Origin: an uncultured Chitinophaga sp. | GTDB lineage: Bacteria; Bacteroidota; Bacteroidia; Cytophagales; Cyclobacteriaceae | Direction of reading: 5' to 3' | DNA length: 64,000 nt | Assembly (NCBI GenBank): GCA_902168205.1 | Contig: CABHOK010000007.1 | Span: forward strand, 1-64,000 | Shown: positions 36,642-46,803 of the stretch, one piece after another | Layout of the letters: each line of letters opens with the position of its first letter | How positions within the stretch are numbered: the stretch's first letter is position 1 | Notes under the pieces: model-generated | Seen by the model: the letters and a program-made list of their open reading frames with translations, nothing else | The model's database searches: none | What the model was told of the DNA's origin: nothing | Program-made: the position numbers and the translations under genes

Positions 36642-38090
36642 TCAGTTAGCGATGGGAATGGATTTTACTTCTTCACTTGTATCCGGTATAGGATAATCGA
36701 ACAAACCAAATTCCTTAATGGCTTCTTCCACTTTGTGTGGTACAAATTTTTCCCAGCCATTTTCTCCTTTGCGGATCATGGATAGTACATTATCGGAAAT
36801 GATGTGCAGCTTGCGTGTATCGGCATCGTTCACGTCTTCCAGCTTATTGTTGTCCATCAAATAACGGAAGAGGTTTTGCAGGTTTGGCGGCAACTCCTGC
36901 TCAAAATCTTTCAGCGTGAACAACTCCTGCGAGCCAACGCGAAGAGCCGGGTATATATATAGTTTTACGTTCGATCCGAAGAGCGAAGCGAAACACTCCA
37001 ATATACCTCCACGCGTGTTCTCGTATGTCTTCTCGTCAAAAACTTTCTGCAACGCATATATACCCATGATGATACCTATCTTCTTCCCTTTCGTGATCTT
37101 GGAGAGATAGTCTACCAGGCGGTAATATTCGAAATAATTCGAGATGAGTACGTTCTGGCCGAGTGAACAAAGTATATCGGCTCGGTGCAGGAAGTCGCGT
37201 TCATCGATCTTTCCATCCGGGCTCAGGTCATTCAGCGTAAGTTCGGATAGCAATACAATTTTGGAACGGTCTACATCCTGCTCCTGCTTGAAATGCCTGC
37301 GCGATGTGAGCAGCATATCTACGTTAACATGCGTAGGTGGTCTGAAGCGGCCGCGCAGCACGAGTACATTCTTTTTATAGAGTTCATCCGTAGGCTGCAT
37401 TACGTTTCCATCCGGACCAAACATGGCCGCTTTCGTCAAACCATTCTTCACCATCTTGAGCGCCATCAAACGGTTGTCAACATGCTTGAAGTCTGGCCCC
37501 GACAGACGGAACATATCAATTTCGATTCTGCGTTGTGTCAGTCCATCCAGCAGCGACATGAGTATATCTTCCGGATTGCTCATGAAGTTACAGGCGTATA
37601 ACAAATTAACCCCCACTATACCAAGCGCAAGTTGCTGTTGCAGCTGATCGGTGTCGTGCATCTTTACATGAATCACACAATCATTCGGTTCACTTTTGGG
37701 TGTAAGTTGAAACCGGAGTCCGATCCAGCCGTGTCCCTGGTTGGTGCGCTCGTAGTTGAGAATCTCAACGGTATCAGCAAACGCGAAGAACCGTGTGTTA
37801 TCGATGCGATGTGGTAATCGTTCCGGCAACAGTACATACTCGTGATCGAGCATGCGAAGAAGTCGATCTTCACAAACGTAGCGATCGCCCACGCCATAGA
37901 TCGCGTCACTGAACTTCATGTCGTAAGCCGACATGGTCTTAGCAACTGTTCCGGAAGCCCCCCCTACTTTAAAAAAATTTGCAGCTACCTCCTGTCCCGC
38001 TCCTATTTCAGCAAACGATCCGTAAATTGATTTACTTAAATTGATCCGCAGGGCTTTCTCCTGCGTGGTAAGTTTTCTGAATTCTTCCAT
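36642..38090 (-). CDS. conserved protein of unknown function (482 aa)
   Basis: I recognise this as a sequence type that recurs in Bacteroidota, but I know no function for it. It has no signal peptide or membrane span. The N-terminal half has RTNQGHGWIGLRFQLTPKSEPND with many charged residues; the second half has GLTKAAMFGPDGNVMQP and VLVLRGRFRPPTHVNVDMLL. One stretch, NVLISNYFEYYRLVDYL and GKKIGIIMGIYAL, resembles a Rossmann-like strand-helix pair, but no catalytic motif is certain. Annotations of such proteins as nucleotide adenylyltransferases or TonB receptors are probably unsupported. It is cotranscribed with the DoxX gene. A family-wide conserved-residue alignment would be the useful test. 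Confidence 0.75.
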   Translation of the reverse strand: MEEFRKLTTQEKALRINLSKSIYGSFAEIGAGQEVAANFFKVGGASGTVAKTMSAYDMKFSDAIYGVGDRYVCEDRLLRMLDHEYVLLPERLPHRIDNTRFFAFADTVEILNYERTNQGHGWIGLRFQLTPKSEPNDCVIHVKMHDTDQLQQQLALGIVGVNLLYACNFMSNPEDILMSLLDGLTQRRIEIDMFRLSGPDFKHVDNRLMALKMVKNGLTKAAMFGPDGNVMQPTDELYKKNVLVLRGRFRPPTHVNVDMLLTSRRHFKQEQDVDRSKIVLLSELTLNDLSPDGKIDERDFLHRADILCSLGQNVLISNYFEYYRLVDYLSKITKGKKIGIIMGIYALQKVFDEKTYENTRGGILECFASLFGSNVKLYIYPALRVGSQELFTLKDFEQELPPNLQNLFRYLMDNNKLEDVNDADTRKLHIISDNVLSMIRKGENGWEKFVPHKVEEAIKEFGLFDYPIPDTSEEVKSIPIAN

Positions 38091-40537: not shown

Positions 40538-40696
40538 AACATCTACGCTTTCTTAAAAAATAATCCTTCAAATTTACAGATTTCCAAAGCAAACGATTGT
40601 TTATCAGCAAATCAAATTAGATCGCAAAGATTTATCACGTTTGGGAGATGAAAACAATGTTTAGATGAAGAAATAACAGAAAAGTAGCGGCATCGT

Positions 40697-40733
40697 TAAA
40701 AAAATAAAACCCGCCTCTCCTGGAGAAGCGGGT
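40697..40733 (-). terminator. rho-independent terminator of the tRNA-like RNA unit
   Basis: On the minus strand, ACCCGC/GCGGGT arms (40728-40733 and 40709-40714), an inner TCT/AGA stem and a T-rich tail with a TTTTATTTTTTT-like run lie 35 bases beyond the first tRNA-like copy. This is a canonical terminator in a place with no protein gene, which indicates an RNA transcript from this region. Confidence 0.8.
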
Positions 40734-40768
40734 AGCTCTGAATAACTCATTAACCTAAACTGAGCTGC

Positions 40769-40915
40769 TGTAGGAGAAGGATTCGAACCTCCACGAAGCG
40801 GTTAGGCGCTGACCTGATCTTGTCCGATTTGAACGGGATCAGGGTGCATTGCTTTGTTCCGTTTACCTCCACCCCCGAGACCGGAGGGCATGTCTGCCAA
40901 TTTCAACACCCTACA
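40769..40915 (-). tRNA. class II tRNA-like RNA, copy 1 (atypical, 147 nt)
   Basis: Minus-strand sequence folds as a tRNA at both ends. A 7-bp acceptor stem (40909-40915 with 40769-40775, one wobble) is contiguous with a 5-bp T stem (40776-40780 with 40788-40792) and a canonical TTCGAAT loop. The D-arm has a Leu-type AAATTGGCAGAC with G18G19. The discriminator base is G, as in serine tRNAs. A 5-bp stem (40884-40888 with 40872-40876) closes a 7-base loop CGGTCTC (40877-40883) that lacks U33. The variable region is about 70 bases long and contains a 7-bp hairpin. No CCA is encoded. A normal decoding function is doubtful; see findings. Confidence 0.6.
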
Positions 40916-40947
40916 ATATATTTGTGTGGTTGGTTGTGTGTGTGATG

Positions 40948-40967
40948 CTCCCGATAGCTATCGGGAG
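40948..40967. repeat. 20-bp perfect palindrome between the tRNA-like copies
   Basis: CTCCCGATAG and CTATCGGGAG form a perfect palindrome, just downstream of copy 2 on the minus strand. It shares the CCCGAT/ATCGGG core with the repeat in pckA and could form a cruciform or RNA processing hairpin. Confidence 0.6.
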
Positions 40968-40974
40968 ACTTTGC

Positions 40975-41091
40975 TGTAGAGGGAGGGCTCGAACCTCCAC
41001 GGAGCAGTTAGGTCGCCAAAGGCTGGACTTTATCCCGTTACCTCCACCCTCGAGACCGGAGGGCATGTCTGCCAAATTCCAACACCCTACA
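40975..41091 (-). tRNA. class II tRNA-like RNA, copy 2 (atypical, 117 nt)
   Basis: This is a second copy of the tRNA-like RNA, 59 bases upstream of copy 1 on the minus strand. The acceptor stem (41085-41091 with 40975-40981), T stem (40982-40986 with 40994-40998, all Watson-Crick) and GCTCGAA-side T loop are intact. The D-arm is GAATTTGGCAGAC. Its central stem CCCTC/GAGGG (41059-41063 with 41047-41051) has a Watson-Crick pair where copy 1 has a wobble. The loop is again CGGTCTC. An alternative register would expose CTCGAGG with a U33 and a CGA triplet, but the stem would have mismatches. The variable region is about 40 bases. G discriminator, no CCA. Confidence 0.6.
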
Positions 41092-41225
41092 ATGGGTTTG
41101 TGTGGGCTTTGAGTGTGTGTGTGATCAGTGCGTCTCGTTGTAAATTATGTAACAAAGTAACACCAAAACTGCTGCTCGAATCAATAAACATTAATAATAT
41201 TTATATACTTTTCAATTTTATTTCA

Positions 41226-41233
41226 TATTTTTG
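41226..41233 (+). promoter_or_regulatory. -7 box for the Lrp/AsnC gene
   Basis: TATTTTTG matches TAnnTTTG and lies 27 bases before the ATG at 41260. No -33 TTG is evident at the usual distance, so the call rests on one element. Confidence 0.4.
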
Positions 41234-41259
41234 AATTAAAACTAAAACCAGTTTTATAT

Positions 41260-41724
41260 ATGGCCGAAAATTATAAAGTTGACAATGTGGATCTGAAGAT
41301 TCTGGAGATTCTGATGCAGGATGCCAAGAAACCCTATACCGAAGTGGCCAAAAAAGCTTTTGTTTCGGGTGGTACAGTCCACGTTCGCATGAATAAAATG
41401 GAAGAAGCCGGCATTGTTGAGAAGACTACGCTAAAGGTAAACTACGCCAAGCTTGGTTATGACATCACGGCTTTTATCGGGATATTCCTGCAGAAGAGCG
41501 CACTCTACGATCAGGTAATGGCAAAACTCAAAGCGATTCCCGAGATCACCAGCATTCATTATACAACGGGTAACTATAGTATGTTTACCAAAATACATTG
41601 CAAAGACACCAATCACCTGAAGCAAGTACTTCATGATAAAATACAACAGGTGGAAGGCATTGAGCGTACTGAAACGATGATCTCATTGGAAGAAAGTCTC
41701 GATCGCAGTTTGAATCTCACCTAG
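41260..41724 (+). CDS. Lrp/AsnC-family transcriptional regulator
   Basis: The 154-residue protein has an N-terminal helix-turn-helix (about 8-55: VDLKILEILMQDAKKPYTEVAKK with GGTVHVRMNKMEEAGIV as recognition region) and a C-terminal RAM/ACT-like domain (about 65-150: AFIGIFLQKSALYDQVMAKLKAIPEI, HYTTGNYSMFTKIHCKD). Effectors of this family are amino acids or related metabolites, and oligomers bind many promoters. No neighbour gene indicates its target. It has its own promoter and terminator. Confidence 0.92.
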   Translation: MAENYKVDNVDLKILEILMQDAKKPYTEVAKKAFVSGGTVHVRMNKMEEAGIVEKTTLKVNYAKLGYDITAFIGIFLQKSALYDQVMAKLKAIPEITSIHYTTGNYSMFTKIHCKDTNHLKQVLHDKIQQVEGIERTETMISLEESLDRSLNLT

Positions 41725-41965: not shown

Positions 41966-43411
41966 ATGAGTAAAGATAATCAGGTATTAGAGGAGCTGAC
42001 CTCCAAGGAATACGAGCACGGCTGGACCACCAACTTCGAGACCGATTCTGCTCCCAAAGGGTTGAACGAGGACATCATCCGGTTTATCTCTTCCAAGAAA
42101 AACGAACCCGAGTGGTTGCTCGAGTGGCGCCTTTCCGCTTATCGCCAGTGGACAAAAATGAAAGAACCCACCTGGCCGAACGTTACCTACCCTCCTATTA
42201 ATTATCAGGACGTTATTTATTACTCTGCCCCCAAGCAAAAAGCAACTCCTAAAAACCTGGAGGACGTTGATCCTGAGCTGATCAAGACTTTCGAAAAGCT
42301 GGGTATATCTTTAACAGAACAGAAAAGACTAACCGGTGTAGCCGTGGATGCTGTTATCGATAGCGTTTCGGTTGCTACTACGTTTAAAGAAACACTGGGC
42401 GAACTGGGGATCATCTTCTGCTCGTTCAGCGAAGCCGTACAAAAACACCCTGACCTTGTGAAGAAGTATATGGGTTCGGTTGTGCCGGTAAACGATAATT
42501 ACTTTGCAGCGCTTAACTCCGCTGTGTTTACAGACGGATCGTTCTGCTATATTCCCAAAGGTGTTCGTTGCCCGATGGAACTCTCTACATACTTCAGAAT
42601 TAACGCAGCGAATACGGGCCAGTTTGAGAGAACATTGATCGTAGCCGATGAAGGTTCTTACGTCAGTTACCTCGAAGGCTGTACCGCTCCTATGCGCGAT
42701 GAGAATCAATTACACGCAGCGGTAGTTGAAATCTACGCGATGAAAGATGCACAGGTAAAATACTCAACCGTACAAAACTGGTACCCGGGTGATAAAGAAG
42801 GTAAAGGCGGTATCTATAACTTTGTAACGAAGCGCGGCCTTTGCTTTGGCGATGGTTCTAAAATTTCATGGACACAGGTTGAAACCGGATCGGCTATAAC
42901 CTGGAAATATCCTTCGTGTATATTGAAAGGTGATAACTCCATGGGTGAGTTTTACTCCGTAGCCGTTACCAACAACTATCAGCAGGCTGATACCGGTACG
43001 AAGATGATTCACATCGGTAAGAACACCAAGTCGCGCATCGTATCGAAAGGTATATCTGCAGGACACTCGCAGAATAGCTACCGTGGACAAGTTCACATCA
43101 TGAAACGCGCAGAAGGTGCACGCAACTTCTCACAGTGTGACTCATTGTTGATGGGTGACAAATGCGGAGCGCACACCTTCCCATATATAGATGTTGAAAA
43201 TAACTCAGCCAAGATCGAGCACGAAGCTACAACATCCAAGATTGGTGAAGACCAGATCTTCTACTGCCTGCAACGCGGTATCGATGAAGAATCTGCTGTA
43301 GCACTGATCGTGAATGGTTATGCCAAAGAAGTACTCAACCAACTCCCGATGGAGTTTGCTGTGGAAGCACAAAAACTACTGGCATTGACCCTGGAGGGAA
43401 GTGTAGGATAA
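41966..43411 (+). CDS. sufB: Fe-S cluster assembly protein SufB
   Basis: SufB forms the SufBC2D scaffold on which new Fe-S clusters are built. The 481-residue sequence has the usual N-terminal WRLSAYRQW segment, [31 protein letters not shown] and the beta-helix core [11 protein letters not shown]...[11 protein letters not shown], with the C-terminal [28 protein letters not shown]. Length is normal. It leads the operon sufB-C-D-S-E-T. The family Cys and Glu residues for cluster assembly are present. Confidence 0.96.
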
Positions 43412-43479
43412 TTTACGTGTGAAGCATAAATCCTTCATACACCAAAACATATAGTATATAAAGCAAAGAAGATATAGCG

Positions 43480-44235
<756 letters not shown>

Positions 44236-44245
44236 TGCAAGAACG

Positions 44246-45553
44246 ATGAGTGTTGCTGTATCTGAAAAAAATATCACGTCCGAGATTGCTGCAGGCATTG
44301 AGAAGAGTCTGAAGACTGCATCTTCGGAAACTGCTCTTCGCAAGGAAGCGCTGGAGAATTTCCGTACGCTTGGACTTCCTGCTAACAAAGCAGAAGAGTA
44401 TAAATTCACACCGATAACCCGATCACTGGAGAAGAACTTCAATTTCGCTCTGCAGAATCCGGTTTCCAAAATCAATAACGTTTCTGACTATACCATTGCC
44501 GGAGTTGAAGCTGATGTACTGGTATTTGTAAACGGGGTGTTTTCGAAGGAAACATCTTCGATCAAATCAACCGGGCTTACCGTTCTTACTTTACAGGAAG
44601 CACTGTCTACCAAGACTGATCTTGTATTGAAGCACCTGGGTAAATATGCGGATGCAAAGACTGATGCATTTATAGCCTGGAACACGGCCGCATTTCAGGA
44701 TGGTGTATTTATATACGTTCCTGACAACACAGTAGTGGAGAAGCCTGTTGTACTTCACCATATACACGATGCTGCACAAGGTCAGGTGATATCGGTTAAC
44801 CGTAACCTGATTGTTGTAGGCAAGAGCAGCGAGCTGACTGTATTGGAGAAATTCGATTCAACCGGTTCAGCAAACTTCTCGAATACGGTAACAGAAGCCG
44901 TTGTGGCCGAGAATGCAGCTCTCAATCTATACTCCATTCAAAACGATAACGGACCTCGCTATCAGTTCGGTCTTACACAGATATACCAGTCTAACTTCAG
45001 CCGTGTTAATACCTATACCTTTACCCTGAGTGGTAAACTGGTACGAAACAACCTGCAGTTTGTGCTGGATGGTGAAGGAATTGAATCGCACATGTACGGA
45101 CTATATTTGCTGACGAACGATACACTGGCGGATAACCATACCGTTGTTGATCACCGGAAGCCTAATTCATTCAGCAATGAAATGTATAAAGGTATTATGG
45201 ATGGCAGCTCTAAAGGTGTGTTCAACGGTAAGATCTACGTGCGTCCTAATGCTCAGAAAACAAATGCCTTCCAGGCAAACCGGAATATACTGCTCACCGA
45301 TAAAGCTACGGTAAACACCAAACCACAGCTTGAGATCTGGGCAGATGATGTAAAATGTTCGCACGGTTGTACTACGGGTCAGTTGGATGAAGAAGCTCTC
45401 TTCTATCTGCAGGCACGCGGTATCAGTAAAGAAACAGCACAGGCTATGATGCTCTACGCGTTCGCGGGCGAAGTACTGGACAATGTGAAGCACCCTGTGA
45501 TCAAAGAATATCTCGACAACGTAATCAGCGAAAGGTTACATAAAAACTTTTAG
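44246..45553 (+). CDS. sufD: Fe-S cluster assembly protein SufD
   Basis: SufD pairs with SufB in the scaffold. The 435-residue protein has the typical beta-helix core with VVDHRKPNSFSNEMYKGIMDGSSKGVFNGKIYVRPNAQKTNAFQ (key residues H, N and K-G-V-F-N-G) and WADDVKCSHGCTTGQLDEEALFYLQARGI near the end. The conserved cysteine-histidine pair CSHGCTTG is intact. It is 10 bases after sufC and 2 before sufS. Confidence 0.95.
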   Translation: MSVAVSEKNITSEIAAGIEKSLKTASSETALRKEALENFRTLGLPANKAEEYKFTPITRSLEKNFNFALQNPVSKINNVSDYTIAGVEADVLVFVNGVFSKETSSIKSTGLTVLTLQEALSTKTDLVLKHLGKYADAKTDAFIAWNTAAFQDGVFIYVPDNTVVEKPVVLHHIHDAAQGQVISVNRNLIVVGKSSELTVLEKFDSTGSANFSNTVTEAVVAENAALNLYSIQNDNGPRYQFGLTQIYQSNFSRVNTYTFTLSGKLVRNNLQFVLDGEGIESHMYGLYLLTNDTLADNHTVVDHRKPNSFSNEMYKGIMDGSSKGVFNGKIYVRPNAQKTNAFQANRNILLTDKATVNTKPQLEIWADDVKCSHGCTTGQLDEEALFYLQARGISKETAQAMMLYAFAGEVLDNVKHPVIKEYLDNVISERLHKNF

Positions 45554-45555
45554 GT

Positions 45556-46803
45556 ATGGTTTCCTCCTCTCCTGCTATAGCCGGTAAACTTGATATTGAA
45601 GCGATCCGAAAACAATTTCCGATCCTTCATCAACAGGTTAACGGGCGCGATTTAGTATATCTTGATAACGCTGCTACTTCGCAGAAGCCGCTGGTTGTGA
45701 TCGATGCCTTGATCGATTATTATAAAAGCTACAATGCCAATATACACCGCGGTATACACACACTGGCGGAGAAAGCAACGAAAGCCTACGAAGAGACGCG
45801 CCATACAGCACAGCGTTTTATCAACGCGAAGTCTGAACAGGAGATCATCTTTACGAGAGGCGTAACCGAAGGTATAAACCTGGTGGCATCATCGTATGGA
45901 AGGGCTTTTTTAAAAGAAGGTGACGAGATTATTATATCGGGCCTGGAGCATCACTCGAACATTGTACCGTGGCAACTGGTATGTGAAGAGAAGAAAGCAA
46001 AACTGCAGGTGATCCCGGTATCTCCGGAAGGTGAACTTGATCTGGATACTTTCAAAAAGATACTCTCCGGTAAAACAAAGATTGTAGCCATCAACCATGC
46101 TTCCAACAGCCTGGGAACGATTAACCCTGTGAAGGAAGTAATCAAACTGGCGCATGAAGTTGGCGCTGTTGTTTTGATTGATGGTGCACAAGCAGGTGCT
46201 CACTTAGAGATTGACGTGCAGGACATGGATTGTGATTTCTACTGCCTGTCTGCTCACAAAATGTACGGTCCTACCGGCACTGGTATACTCTACGGTAAAA
46301 AAGAACTTCTTGAAAAGATGCCTCCGTACCATGGTGGCGGTGAAATGATCAAGGAAGTTACGTTCGAGAAAACTACATACAACGACCTCCCCTATAAATT
46401 CGAAGCGGGCACTCCGAACATTGCCGATGTAGTAGCCTATAAATATGCTTTCGATTTTATCAATGAACTGGGTCGTGAAAATATAGCGGCACATGAACAT
46501 GAGCTGTTAACCTACGCAACAGAACGCGTTTCGAAACTGAAATCGGTGAAGCTTGTGGGTACTGCCAAAAACAAAGTGGGCGTTTTAGCTTTCACGGTGG
46601 AAGGCATTCACCACTTCGATATTGGCCAGATGCTGGATGCGCGCGGTATCGCGGTTCGCACCGGGCATCATTGCACACAACCTCTCATGACTTGCTATGG
46701 CATTGAAGGAACTGTAAGGGCTTCGTTCGCGGTTTATAATACTAAGAAAGAGGTTGATCAGCTCGTAGAGGGTTTGGAGCGGGTCATTAACTTCATGAAG
46801 TAA
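45556..46803 (+). CDS. sufS: cysteine desulfurase SufS
   Basis: SufS is a PLP enzyme that draws sulfur from cysteine as a persulfide. The 415-residue sequence shows LDNAATSQKP near residue 32, HSNIVPWQ near 122-130, and the PLP-lysine motif LSAHKMYGPTGTG near 229. The active-site cysteine is in the RTGHHCTQPLMTCYGI region (about 363-380). It is the fourth gene of the suf operon and its stop is three bases before sufE. Confidence 0.95.
   Translation: MVSSSPAIAGKLDIEAIRKQFPILHQQVNGRDLVYLDNAATSQKPLVVIDALIDYYKSYNANIHRGIHTLAEKATKAYEETRHTAQRFINAKSEQEIIFTRGVTEGINLVASSYGRAFLKEGDEIIISGLEHHSNIVPWQLVCEEKKAKLQVIPVSPEGELDLDTFKKILSGKTKIVAINHASNSLGTINPVKEVIKLAHEVGAVVLIDGAQAGAHLEIDVQDMDCDFYCLSAHKMYGPTGTGILYGKKELLEKMPPYHGGGEMIKEVTFEKTTYNDLPYKFEAGTPNIADVVAYKYAFDFINELGRENIAAHEHELLTYATERVSKLKSVKLVGTAKNKVGVLAFTVEGIHHFDIGQMLDARGIAVRTGHHCTQPLMTCYGIEGTVRASFAVYNTKKEVDQLVEGLERVINFMK

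Follow-up and report, generated by a model that had tools for sequence, protein, structure and literature searches.

A family of tRNA-shaped RNAs in Bacteroidota that combines an aspartate anticodon set with an amidation signature: a proposed carrier for asparagine synthesis

Introduction

Some RNAs with the shape of a tRNA act outside decoding, among them the staphylococcal cell-wall tRNAGly and the tRNA-Other of Bacillus cereus. At the AsnC-asnA locus of Escherichia coli, an AsnC-type regulator is encoded divergently from a gene for asparagine supply.

Asparagine can also be synthesized on a tRNA. In the pathway described for Deinococcus, Thermus and Bdellovibrio, a non-discriminating AspRS and GatCAB form Asn on tRNAAsn, and the same route has already been proposed for some genera of Bacteroidetes with AsnRS, GlnRS and GatCAB and no asparagine synthetase (PMC4206432). 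The determinants of bacterial Asp identity are given as G73, G10, G34, U35, C36 and C38, with G2-C71 as a minor element, and those of Ser identity as G73, C72, G2-C71, R4-Y69, C11-G24 and the large arm; U1-A72 permits amidation of Asp-tRNAAsn, while G1-C72 together with U20a forbids it in tRNAAsp (PMC9976931).

The RNA described here is present in two tandem copies in the window, by which we mean the whole 64,000-nucleotide stretch of uncultured Chitinophaga sp. DNA that was analysed. In our reading, as in the tRNAAsn pathway outlined in PMC4206432, AspRS would act first and GatCAB second, on a carrier with U1-A72, in cells that have AsnRS and lack a canonical asparagine synthetase. In that pathway, however, Asn is formed on tRNAAsn itself, which decodes, and this requires a relaxed AspRS, whereas a separate RNA with the anticodon GUC would suit a discriminating AspRS. 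The present reading keeps the proposed pathway and shifts it to a dedicated RNA. With bacterial tRNAAsp the RNA shares G34, U35, C36, C38, G73 and G2-C71, but it has a class II body with a long variable arm, carries U1-A72 instead of G1-C72, lacks U20a, and does not keep U33 and purine 37. It resembles tRNALeu and other class II tRNAs in the layout of the D arm and the base of the variable arm, and differs from them in G73, in its anticodon and in a much longer arm. It is distinct from the cell-wall tRNAGly and tRNA-Other in identity, body, taxa and pathway. The divergent layout of the E. coli AsnC-asnA locus recurs here, with the RNA as the supplied gene. No such RNA was found by title or abstract start among the open-access papers listed in our literature search.

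Two tandem units in the window

The features of the locus are as follows.

41260..41724, plus strand: gene for an AsnC/Lrp-family regulator, divergent from the RNA (NCBIfam AsnC NF008384, 172.5 bits, E 5.3e-51; Pfam AsnC_trans_reg)
41153..41160, minus strand: TTACTTTG, an imperfect match to the Bacteroidota -7 promoter element TAnnTTTG, upstream of copy 1 (from the sequence)
40972..41092, minus strand: RNA copy 1, with the shorter variable arm (covariance model R1, 128.2 bits; U1 at 41091, G73 at 40974)
41052..41058, minus strand: anticodon loop of copy 1, CGGTCTC (G34 U35 C36 U37 C38; without U33; from sequence and alignment)
40948..40967, minus strand: palindromic hairpin CTCCCGATAGCTATCGGGAG in the spacer between the copies (hairpin found on the plus strand)
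40766..40916, minus strand: RNA copy 2, with the longer variable arm (covariance model R1, 120.8 bits; U1 at 40915, G73 at 40768)
40877..40883, minus strand: anticodon loop of copy 2, CGGTCTC (from sequence and alignment)
40734..40765, minus strand: trailer with AGGTTAATG (by eye)
40709..40733, minus strand: intrinsic terminator after copy 2

A preliminary description of this DNA had reported two tandem minus-strand units with a 7-bp acceptor stem, a 5-bp T stem with a TTCGA loop, a Leu-like D arm with GG and no encoded CCA, all of which are present in the sequence. Its lengths of 147 and 117 nt hold if G73 is left out; from U1 to G73, copy 1 comprises 118 nt and copy 2 comprises 148 nt. Each unit consists of (i) the acceptor stem, (ii) the D arm, (iii) a 5-bp anticodon-like stem with a 7-nt loop, (iv) a long variable arm and (v) the T arm. 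The variable region had been called oversized, with its own hairpin. It is indeed long, but it is ordered rather than loosely expanded, being built of a GGAG/CUCC stem, a short helix, an NAUAAA/CUAA internal loop and a variable hairpin. The loop CGGTCTC, with G33 and U37, does lack U33 in both copies, as had been stated. It had also been said to hold no clear anticodon, which is not the case: G34-U35-C36 is the Asp anticodon. The discriminator is G73, as described; its reading as Ser-like fails, since G73 is equally the Asp discriminator and the Ser set is missing in the 74 bacterial units analysed below.

No tRNA was reported by ARAGORN over the whole window, no family of Rfam 15 reached its gathering score there, and RF00005 gave no match at E<=10 over positions 40600-41300. 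An ordinary tRNA, a tmRNA or an Rfam family was thus rejected for the window. The window copies are therefore not turned into ordinary tRNAs by these curated models, yet sixteen short phage forms of the RNA are called tRNA-Asp by ARAGORN. An 8-bp acceptor stem, with a pyrimidine at -1 pairing with G73, was rejected because -1 is A in 13 of the 75 rows of alignment A3 and 9 of the 36 rows of A4. Two further candidates were discarded, namely a mini-ORF over GGGGUUGACCAC in the long arm, whose frame is not kept, and an 11-nt tetraloop receptor or K-turn in NAUAAA/CUAA, for which no fit was seen by eye.

The promoter-like element upstream of copy 1 departs from the consensus of the Bacteroidota -7 element, TAnnTTTG. 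Of 60 other loci, 49 have an exact TAnnTTTG within 100 nt upstream of the RNA; mononucleotide shuffles give 5.4 on average and 14 at most. Hairpins with T-runs were seen by eye 3' of the RNA in most of the loci printed. A GGTTWAT element, also noted by eye, lies between the last RNA copy and the terminator in the window (40734-40765) and in L103, L106, L112, L115-L117 and L119-L123. In some copies (L009, L011, L016, L024, L057) the D loop or the variable arm is interrupted by a palindromic element of the CCCGATAGCTATCGGG type, and the same palindrome sits between the two window copies.

Covariation and distribution of the RNA

A blastn search with the pair of window units covered 196 genomes of the same family, sampled evenly from a larger group; 167 of them matched, in 75 of 84 genera. 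From these matches 50 units were extracted and 46 were used (four were left out) in alignment A2. In the 46 units, 96.7% of the cells are paired, compared to 91.4 in shuffles, and 90 cells are changed on both sides, compared to 26.8 in shuffles, a value reached in none of 500. Ten pairs show changes on both sides (6.5 in shuffles; 2 of 500 as high). In a broader alignment of 119 matches (116 distinct), which is biased towards the covariance model because it was fitted to it, both-sided changes occur in 23 of 30 pairs and in 435 cells, against 109 cells in shuffles (0 of 500 as high).

Covariance model R1, built from the 46-unit alignment, was run with stricter filters on 395 genomes of the phylum. 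The scores fell into two groups: 40 genomes reached at least 88 bits, one genome (G266) scored 68.6, and the other listed matches, mostly of 85-89 nt, had 61.1 bits or less. The 40 positive genomes belong to seven families, six of the window's class and one (f48) of another class. The six next-best model matches in the window's own genome are tRNA-Leu, -Tyr and -Ser, at 52.8 bits or less. A letter pattern was also scanned over the genomes of 84,980 species, and at least 120 stretches matched it. Among the matches listed, the titles name Bacteroidota, Ignavibacteria or Kapaibacterium, and the genera and groups include Chitinophaga, Pedobacter, Hymenobacter, Spirosoma, Dyadobacter, Cyclobacterium, Flammeovirga and Saprospiraceae. 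Copy 2 had no match in the plasmid collection. In Phaeodactylibacter xiamenensis (L187:311-1054) five copies lie in tandem. In 67 of 204 distinct units, e.g. L013:1398-1547, L077:5959-6122 and L277:4805-4954, the long variable hairpin contains a conserved GG..GACCAC motif.

The two window units are members of a widespread RNA family without an Rfam match, and they are not decayed tRNAs. The view that their stems are under selection, and not those of a drifting pseudogene, is borne out by conservation and covariation across the family. Neither of the findings that would have spoken against it was made: the unit is not confined to one strain (167/196 genomes of the family, 40/395 of the phylum), and compensatory changes far exceed those of shuffles. 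The proposal that these are decayed tRNA genes or a mobile repeat draws on the tandem arrangement and on the palindromic inserts that interrupt some copies, but it is refuted by conservation over families and classes and by covariation, with the AsnC synteny also against it, and can be dismissed.

Identity determinants

Conserved letters were counted in 74 bacterial units (alignment A3), located by the model in 60 stretches that had been picked from blastn and model matches, not by letter pattern; one 23-bit match was left out. Counts for positions 34-38 were taken from these units because the pattern behind a second table, of 204 distinct units, fixes position 34 (as G or C) to position 38 in the units that it selected.

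U35, C36, C38, G73, G2-C71 and U1-A72 are each present in 74/74 units, and position 34 is G in 72 and C in two. Of the elements of Asp identity, G73, G34, U35, C36 and C38 are therefore present, while G10 occurs in only six units and G1-C72 in none. The two features of a GatCAB substrate, U1-A72 and the absence of U20a, are also found: CA follows GG in 204/204 distinct units, which places A at 20a. The tRNA-Asp of the window's genome is normal, with G1-C72 and U20a, and unlike the RNA; its tRNA-Asn1 has U1-A72.

Decoding tRNAs as a rule have U33 and a purine at 37. In the 74 units, position 33 is U in 41, G in 15, C in 11 and A in seven, so that the lack of U33, which the preliminary description took from the window, does not extend to the whole family. 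Position 37 is U in 69 units, C in three and G in two, i.e. a purine in 2/74. With these letters, and with curated models missing the window copies, the RNA does not conform to an elongator tRNA. Substrates of SerRS and LeuRS were rejected in the same 74 units: C72 is absent (0/74) and C11-G24 is found in 14/74, which disagrees with tRNASer, and all units have G73, while LeuRS needs A73.

The RNA is thus not a member of tRNAAsp, tRNASer or tRNALeu. As judged from its conserved letters, it joins the Asp anticodon set with a predicted signature for amidation by GatCAB.

Units with C34 (loop CTCTCTC), and hence with a Glu-type anticodon, make up 8/204 distinct units, including those of the four Hymenobacter, one Pontibacter and one Ekhidna stretches examined. 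They were noted in L140, L146, L181 and L186 (Hymenobacter), L180 (Pontibacter), L162 (Ekhidna), L069 and L070.

Co-occurrence with GatB and absence of canonical AsnB

GatB was searched in the same 395 genomes. A set of 80 genomes, 40 with the RNA and 40 without it (the latter picked by us), was searched for AsnB, AsnRS, GlnRS and AsnA; it includes every GatB-containing genome of the class, and leaves out G500, G542 and further genomes of the class without the RNA. Canonical AsnB was defined by a match with E below 1e-90 to a query protein from a genome without the RNA (two of the 31 matches are at 52 and 40% identity).

GatB was present in 40/40 genomes with the RNA and in 4/40 without it, and canonical AsnB in 0/40 and 31/40, respectively; the best match to canonical AsnB in any genome with the RNA had an E value of 8.5e-45. 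The Fisher values (2.5e-18 and 3.8e-14) ignore relatedness and our choice of the genomes without the RNA, and so overstate independence. Within families f4 and f5, GatB is likewise missing from those sampled genera that do not have the RNA (G197, G314, G546; G212, G307). AsnA was found in three of the 40 genomes with the RNA (G078, G353, G357) and in nine of the 40 without it. AsnRS was present in 80/80 genomes and GlnRS exceeded the cut-off in 72/80; most genomes with the RNA therefore do not depend on GatCAB for the charging of tRNAAsn or tRNAGln. Among the genomes with GlnRS, GatB accompanied the RNA in 34/34, compared to 2/38 genomes without it.

Several observations do not follow this pattern. 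AsnB-like paralogues occur in many genomes with the RNA and might make Asn; in the window's genome, two AsnB-like genes lie among genes that look, by eye, like those of glycosyltransferases. Outside the window's class, 290 genomes have a GatB match and only three (f48) have the RNA. Three genomes without the RNA (G212, G240, G307) also lack GatB, AsnA and canonical AsnB. GatB without the RNA was found in G236 (without GlnRS), G266 (with AsnA, without GlnRS), G345 and G391. A diverged RNA was sought in G345 and G391, where nothing scored above 55.3 bits and the six matches inspected were tRNA-Leu. G266 carries a 79-nt form (L319:3337-3415) with the anticodon loop CUAUCUC (A34), which ARAGORN reports as tRNA-Asp(atc); no AsnC homologue lies near it in a 7-kb stretch. 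In G391 (family f7), which has neither the RNA nor canonical AsnB, gatA is followed by a gene for a 1116-aa GatB-AspRS fusion (L388:1929-6676) with the domains GatB_N, GatB_Yqey, tRNA_anti-codon, tRNA-synt_2 and GAD and with 'RDHG' in the anticodon-binding domain. The fusion looks like a one-protein Asn transamidosome, a separate route that would join AspRS and GatCAB.

The AspRS residue at the site of E. coli L30, which we take to govern discrimination, is K, F or L in 11 genomes with the RNA and in eight of nine rows without it (six of these from genomes without GatB); the ninth row, with H, is the fused second AspRS of G391. This likeness between genomes with and most genomes without the RNA is at most suggestive of a discriminating AspRS, a weak pointer drawn from aligned residues.

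AsnC-type regulator and other neighbours

The window regulator scored 172.5 bits with NF008384, below the curated cut-off of 227, and 46.5 bits with the Lrp model NF008370. Of the 60 stretches fetched, 29 have an AsnC homologue next to the RNA, three of these stretches belonging to another class, and the homologue is divergent from the RNA in 29/29; in a set of 80 named 8-kb stretches, 55 contain one. The 31 fetched stretches without an AsnC homologue comprise nine of family f8, L079 and 21 of family f1. Several of the latter hold second copies, and the AsnC-linked copy of the same genome was also fetched. No neighbour gene, including any for a protein partner, is common to more than four of these 31 stretches.

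Three f8 stretches (L090, L091, L094) have two genes upstream of the RNA in common, one of them pantothenate synthetase-like by eye. In the window, the AsnC gene is followed by a SufBCDS-type cluster (41966-46803), and this AsnC-Suf order was seen again in seven of the family's fetched stretches. A 482-aa ORF at 36642-38090 of the window has no Pfam match.

Copies in viral contigs

The same letter pattern matched 35 viral contigs, in which the covariance model recognized 34 whole units (78-111 bits; 23 distinct) and one cut by the contig end. All 34 whole units have G2-C71 and G73, 33 have U33, and the first pair is U1-A72 in 25 and A1-U72 in nine. The forms called tRNA-Asp(GTC) by ARAGORN are sixteen short ones of 93-98 nt, in which the class II arm is plain. 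Other tRNAs or a tmRNA were reported by ARAGORN near the RNA in 30/35 viral stretches, the RNA being the sole tRNA-like gene in five, and a separate ordinary tRNA-Asp is present in 5/35 (L256, L277, L280, L281, L283). An extra hairpin was noted in the D loop, just before GG, in L281, L262, L273, L264 and L251.

Of ten proteins, taken from three contigs and compared with phage families, four matched, three of them from L257 (portal protein, exonuclease and replication initiator). Among 13 phage records matching L253, a 636-kb record carries the RNA (99 bits); the rest are one tRNA-Leu and 11 Streptococcus phage records matching 24 letters only. Queries from L257, L277 and L280 had no match in the phage collection.

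Discussion

We propose that the RNA is probably a tRNA-shaped, non-decoding carrier which is charged by AspRS, amidated by GatCAB and supplies asparagine. AspRS would load Asp onto it through G34, U35, C36, C38, G73 and G2-C71, a step for which a discriminating AspRS would be enough, given the Asp anticodon of the RNA. GatCAB would then read U1-A72 and the missing U20a and turn Asp-RNA into Asn-RNA; for both steps we rely on the determinants and on co-occurrence. The misacylated RNA may be kept from the ribosome by the frequent loss of U33, by position 37, which is a pyrimidine in almost every unit, and by its oversized arm of class II type. Asn would presumably be freed and then used by AsnRS, replacing the Asn made elsewhere by AsnA or AsnB; we know of no enzyme for this release. 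Asn may be made on both carriers, the RNA and tRNAAsn. The adjacent AsnC-type regulator probably controls the RNA according to the level of asparagine.

This reading counts in its favour the structure, the conserved determinants, the co-occurrence with GatB, the absence of canonical AsnB and the AsnC neighbourhood. Counted against it are (i) G10 and G1-C72, which are not kept, (ii) the C34 units, (iii) A1-U72 in 9/34 viral units, (iv) the AsnB-like paralogues, (v) U1-A72 on tRNA-Asn1, (vi) AsnA in 3/40 genomes with the RNA, (vii) the 290 GatB-containing genomes outside the class with three carrying the RNA, and (viii) the three genomes that lack the RNA, GatB, AsnA and canonical AsnB. Of the three guesses in the preliminary description, an aminoacylated non-decoding RNA fits best, and a decayed tRNA is excluded by conservation and covariation; the observation that it made is confirmed and its interpretation partly supported.

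The RNA might instead be charged, and perhaps amidated, while acting as a sensor of Asp or Asn supply or as a donor of the amino acid to a cell-wall, lipid or peptide enzyme, and not chiefly as a maker of free Asn. The same determinants, GatB link and AsnC neighbour would be expected, and copies scattered over the genome with promoter-like elements and, by eye, terminators agree with such a role. We nevertheless think it unlikely: the absence of canonical AsnB in 40/40 genomes points to metabolic replacement, and the 31 AsnC-less stretches offer no neighbour gene common to more than four of them.

Ordinary tRNAAsn could also be the carrier on which a non-discriminating AspRS and GatCAB make Asn, which would leave the RNA as an unrelated or regulatory tRNA mimic. 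The U1-A72 pair on tRNA-Asn1 of the window's genome is in line with this, as are the 18 genera, including Bacteroidetes, that PMC4206432 lists with AsnRS, GlnRS and GatCAB, without a synthetase and all with U1-A72 on tRNAAsn. It would not account for the AspRS and GatCAB signatures being joined in the RNA, nor for the GatB link (40/40 against 4/40), and the K, F or L at the AspRS L30 site in 11 genomes with the RNA, likewise found in 8/9 rows without it, also tells against it. We regard this explanation as quite improbable.

That the RNA is an extra decoding tRNA-Asp isoacceptor with an unusual body is very improbable. The anticodon GUC, U33 in 41/74 bacterial and 33/34 whole viral units, the sixteen short phage forms called tRNA-Asp and the position of phage copies near tRNA genes would fit a decoding role; against it stand the absence of U33 from 33/74 units and both window copies, the pyrimidine at 37 in 72/74, the long three-part variable arm, and the presence of a normal tRNA-Asp in the window's genome and in 5/35 viral stretches.

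Returning to the carrier reading, a stronger form of it would make the RNA solely a biosynthesis cofactor, controlled by AsnC, encoded by dedicated genes in one to several copies, and designed to stay away from the ribosome; phages would carry it as an auxiliary metabolic RNA to maintain the supply of asparagine in the infected cell. To this form we give somewhat less than an even chance.

If the carrier reading is true, it would explain why GatCAB is retained, and a canonical asparagine synthetase is missing, in many Bacteroidota that have both AsnRS and GlnRS. It would add a dedicated carrier RNA to metabolism and define a large RNA family whose bacterial members escape ARAGORN and Rfam. The family would also provide a clean test of how the tRNA shape can be used for charging and yet be kept from decoding.
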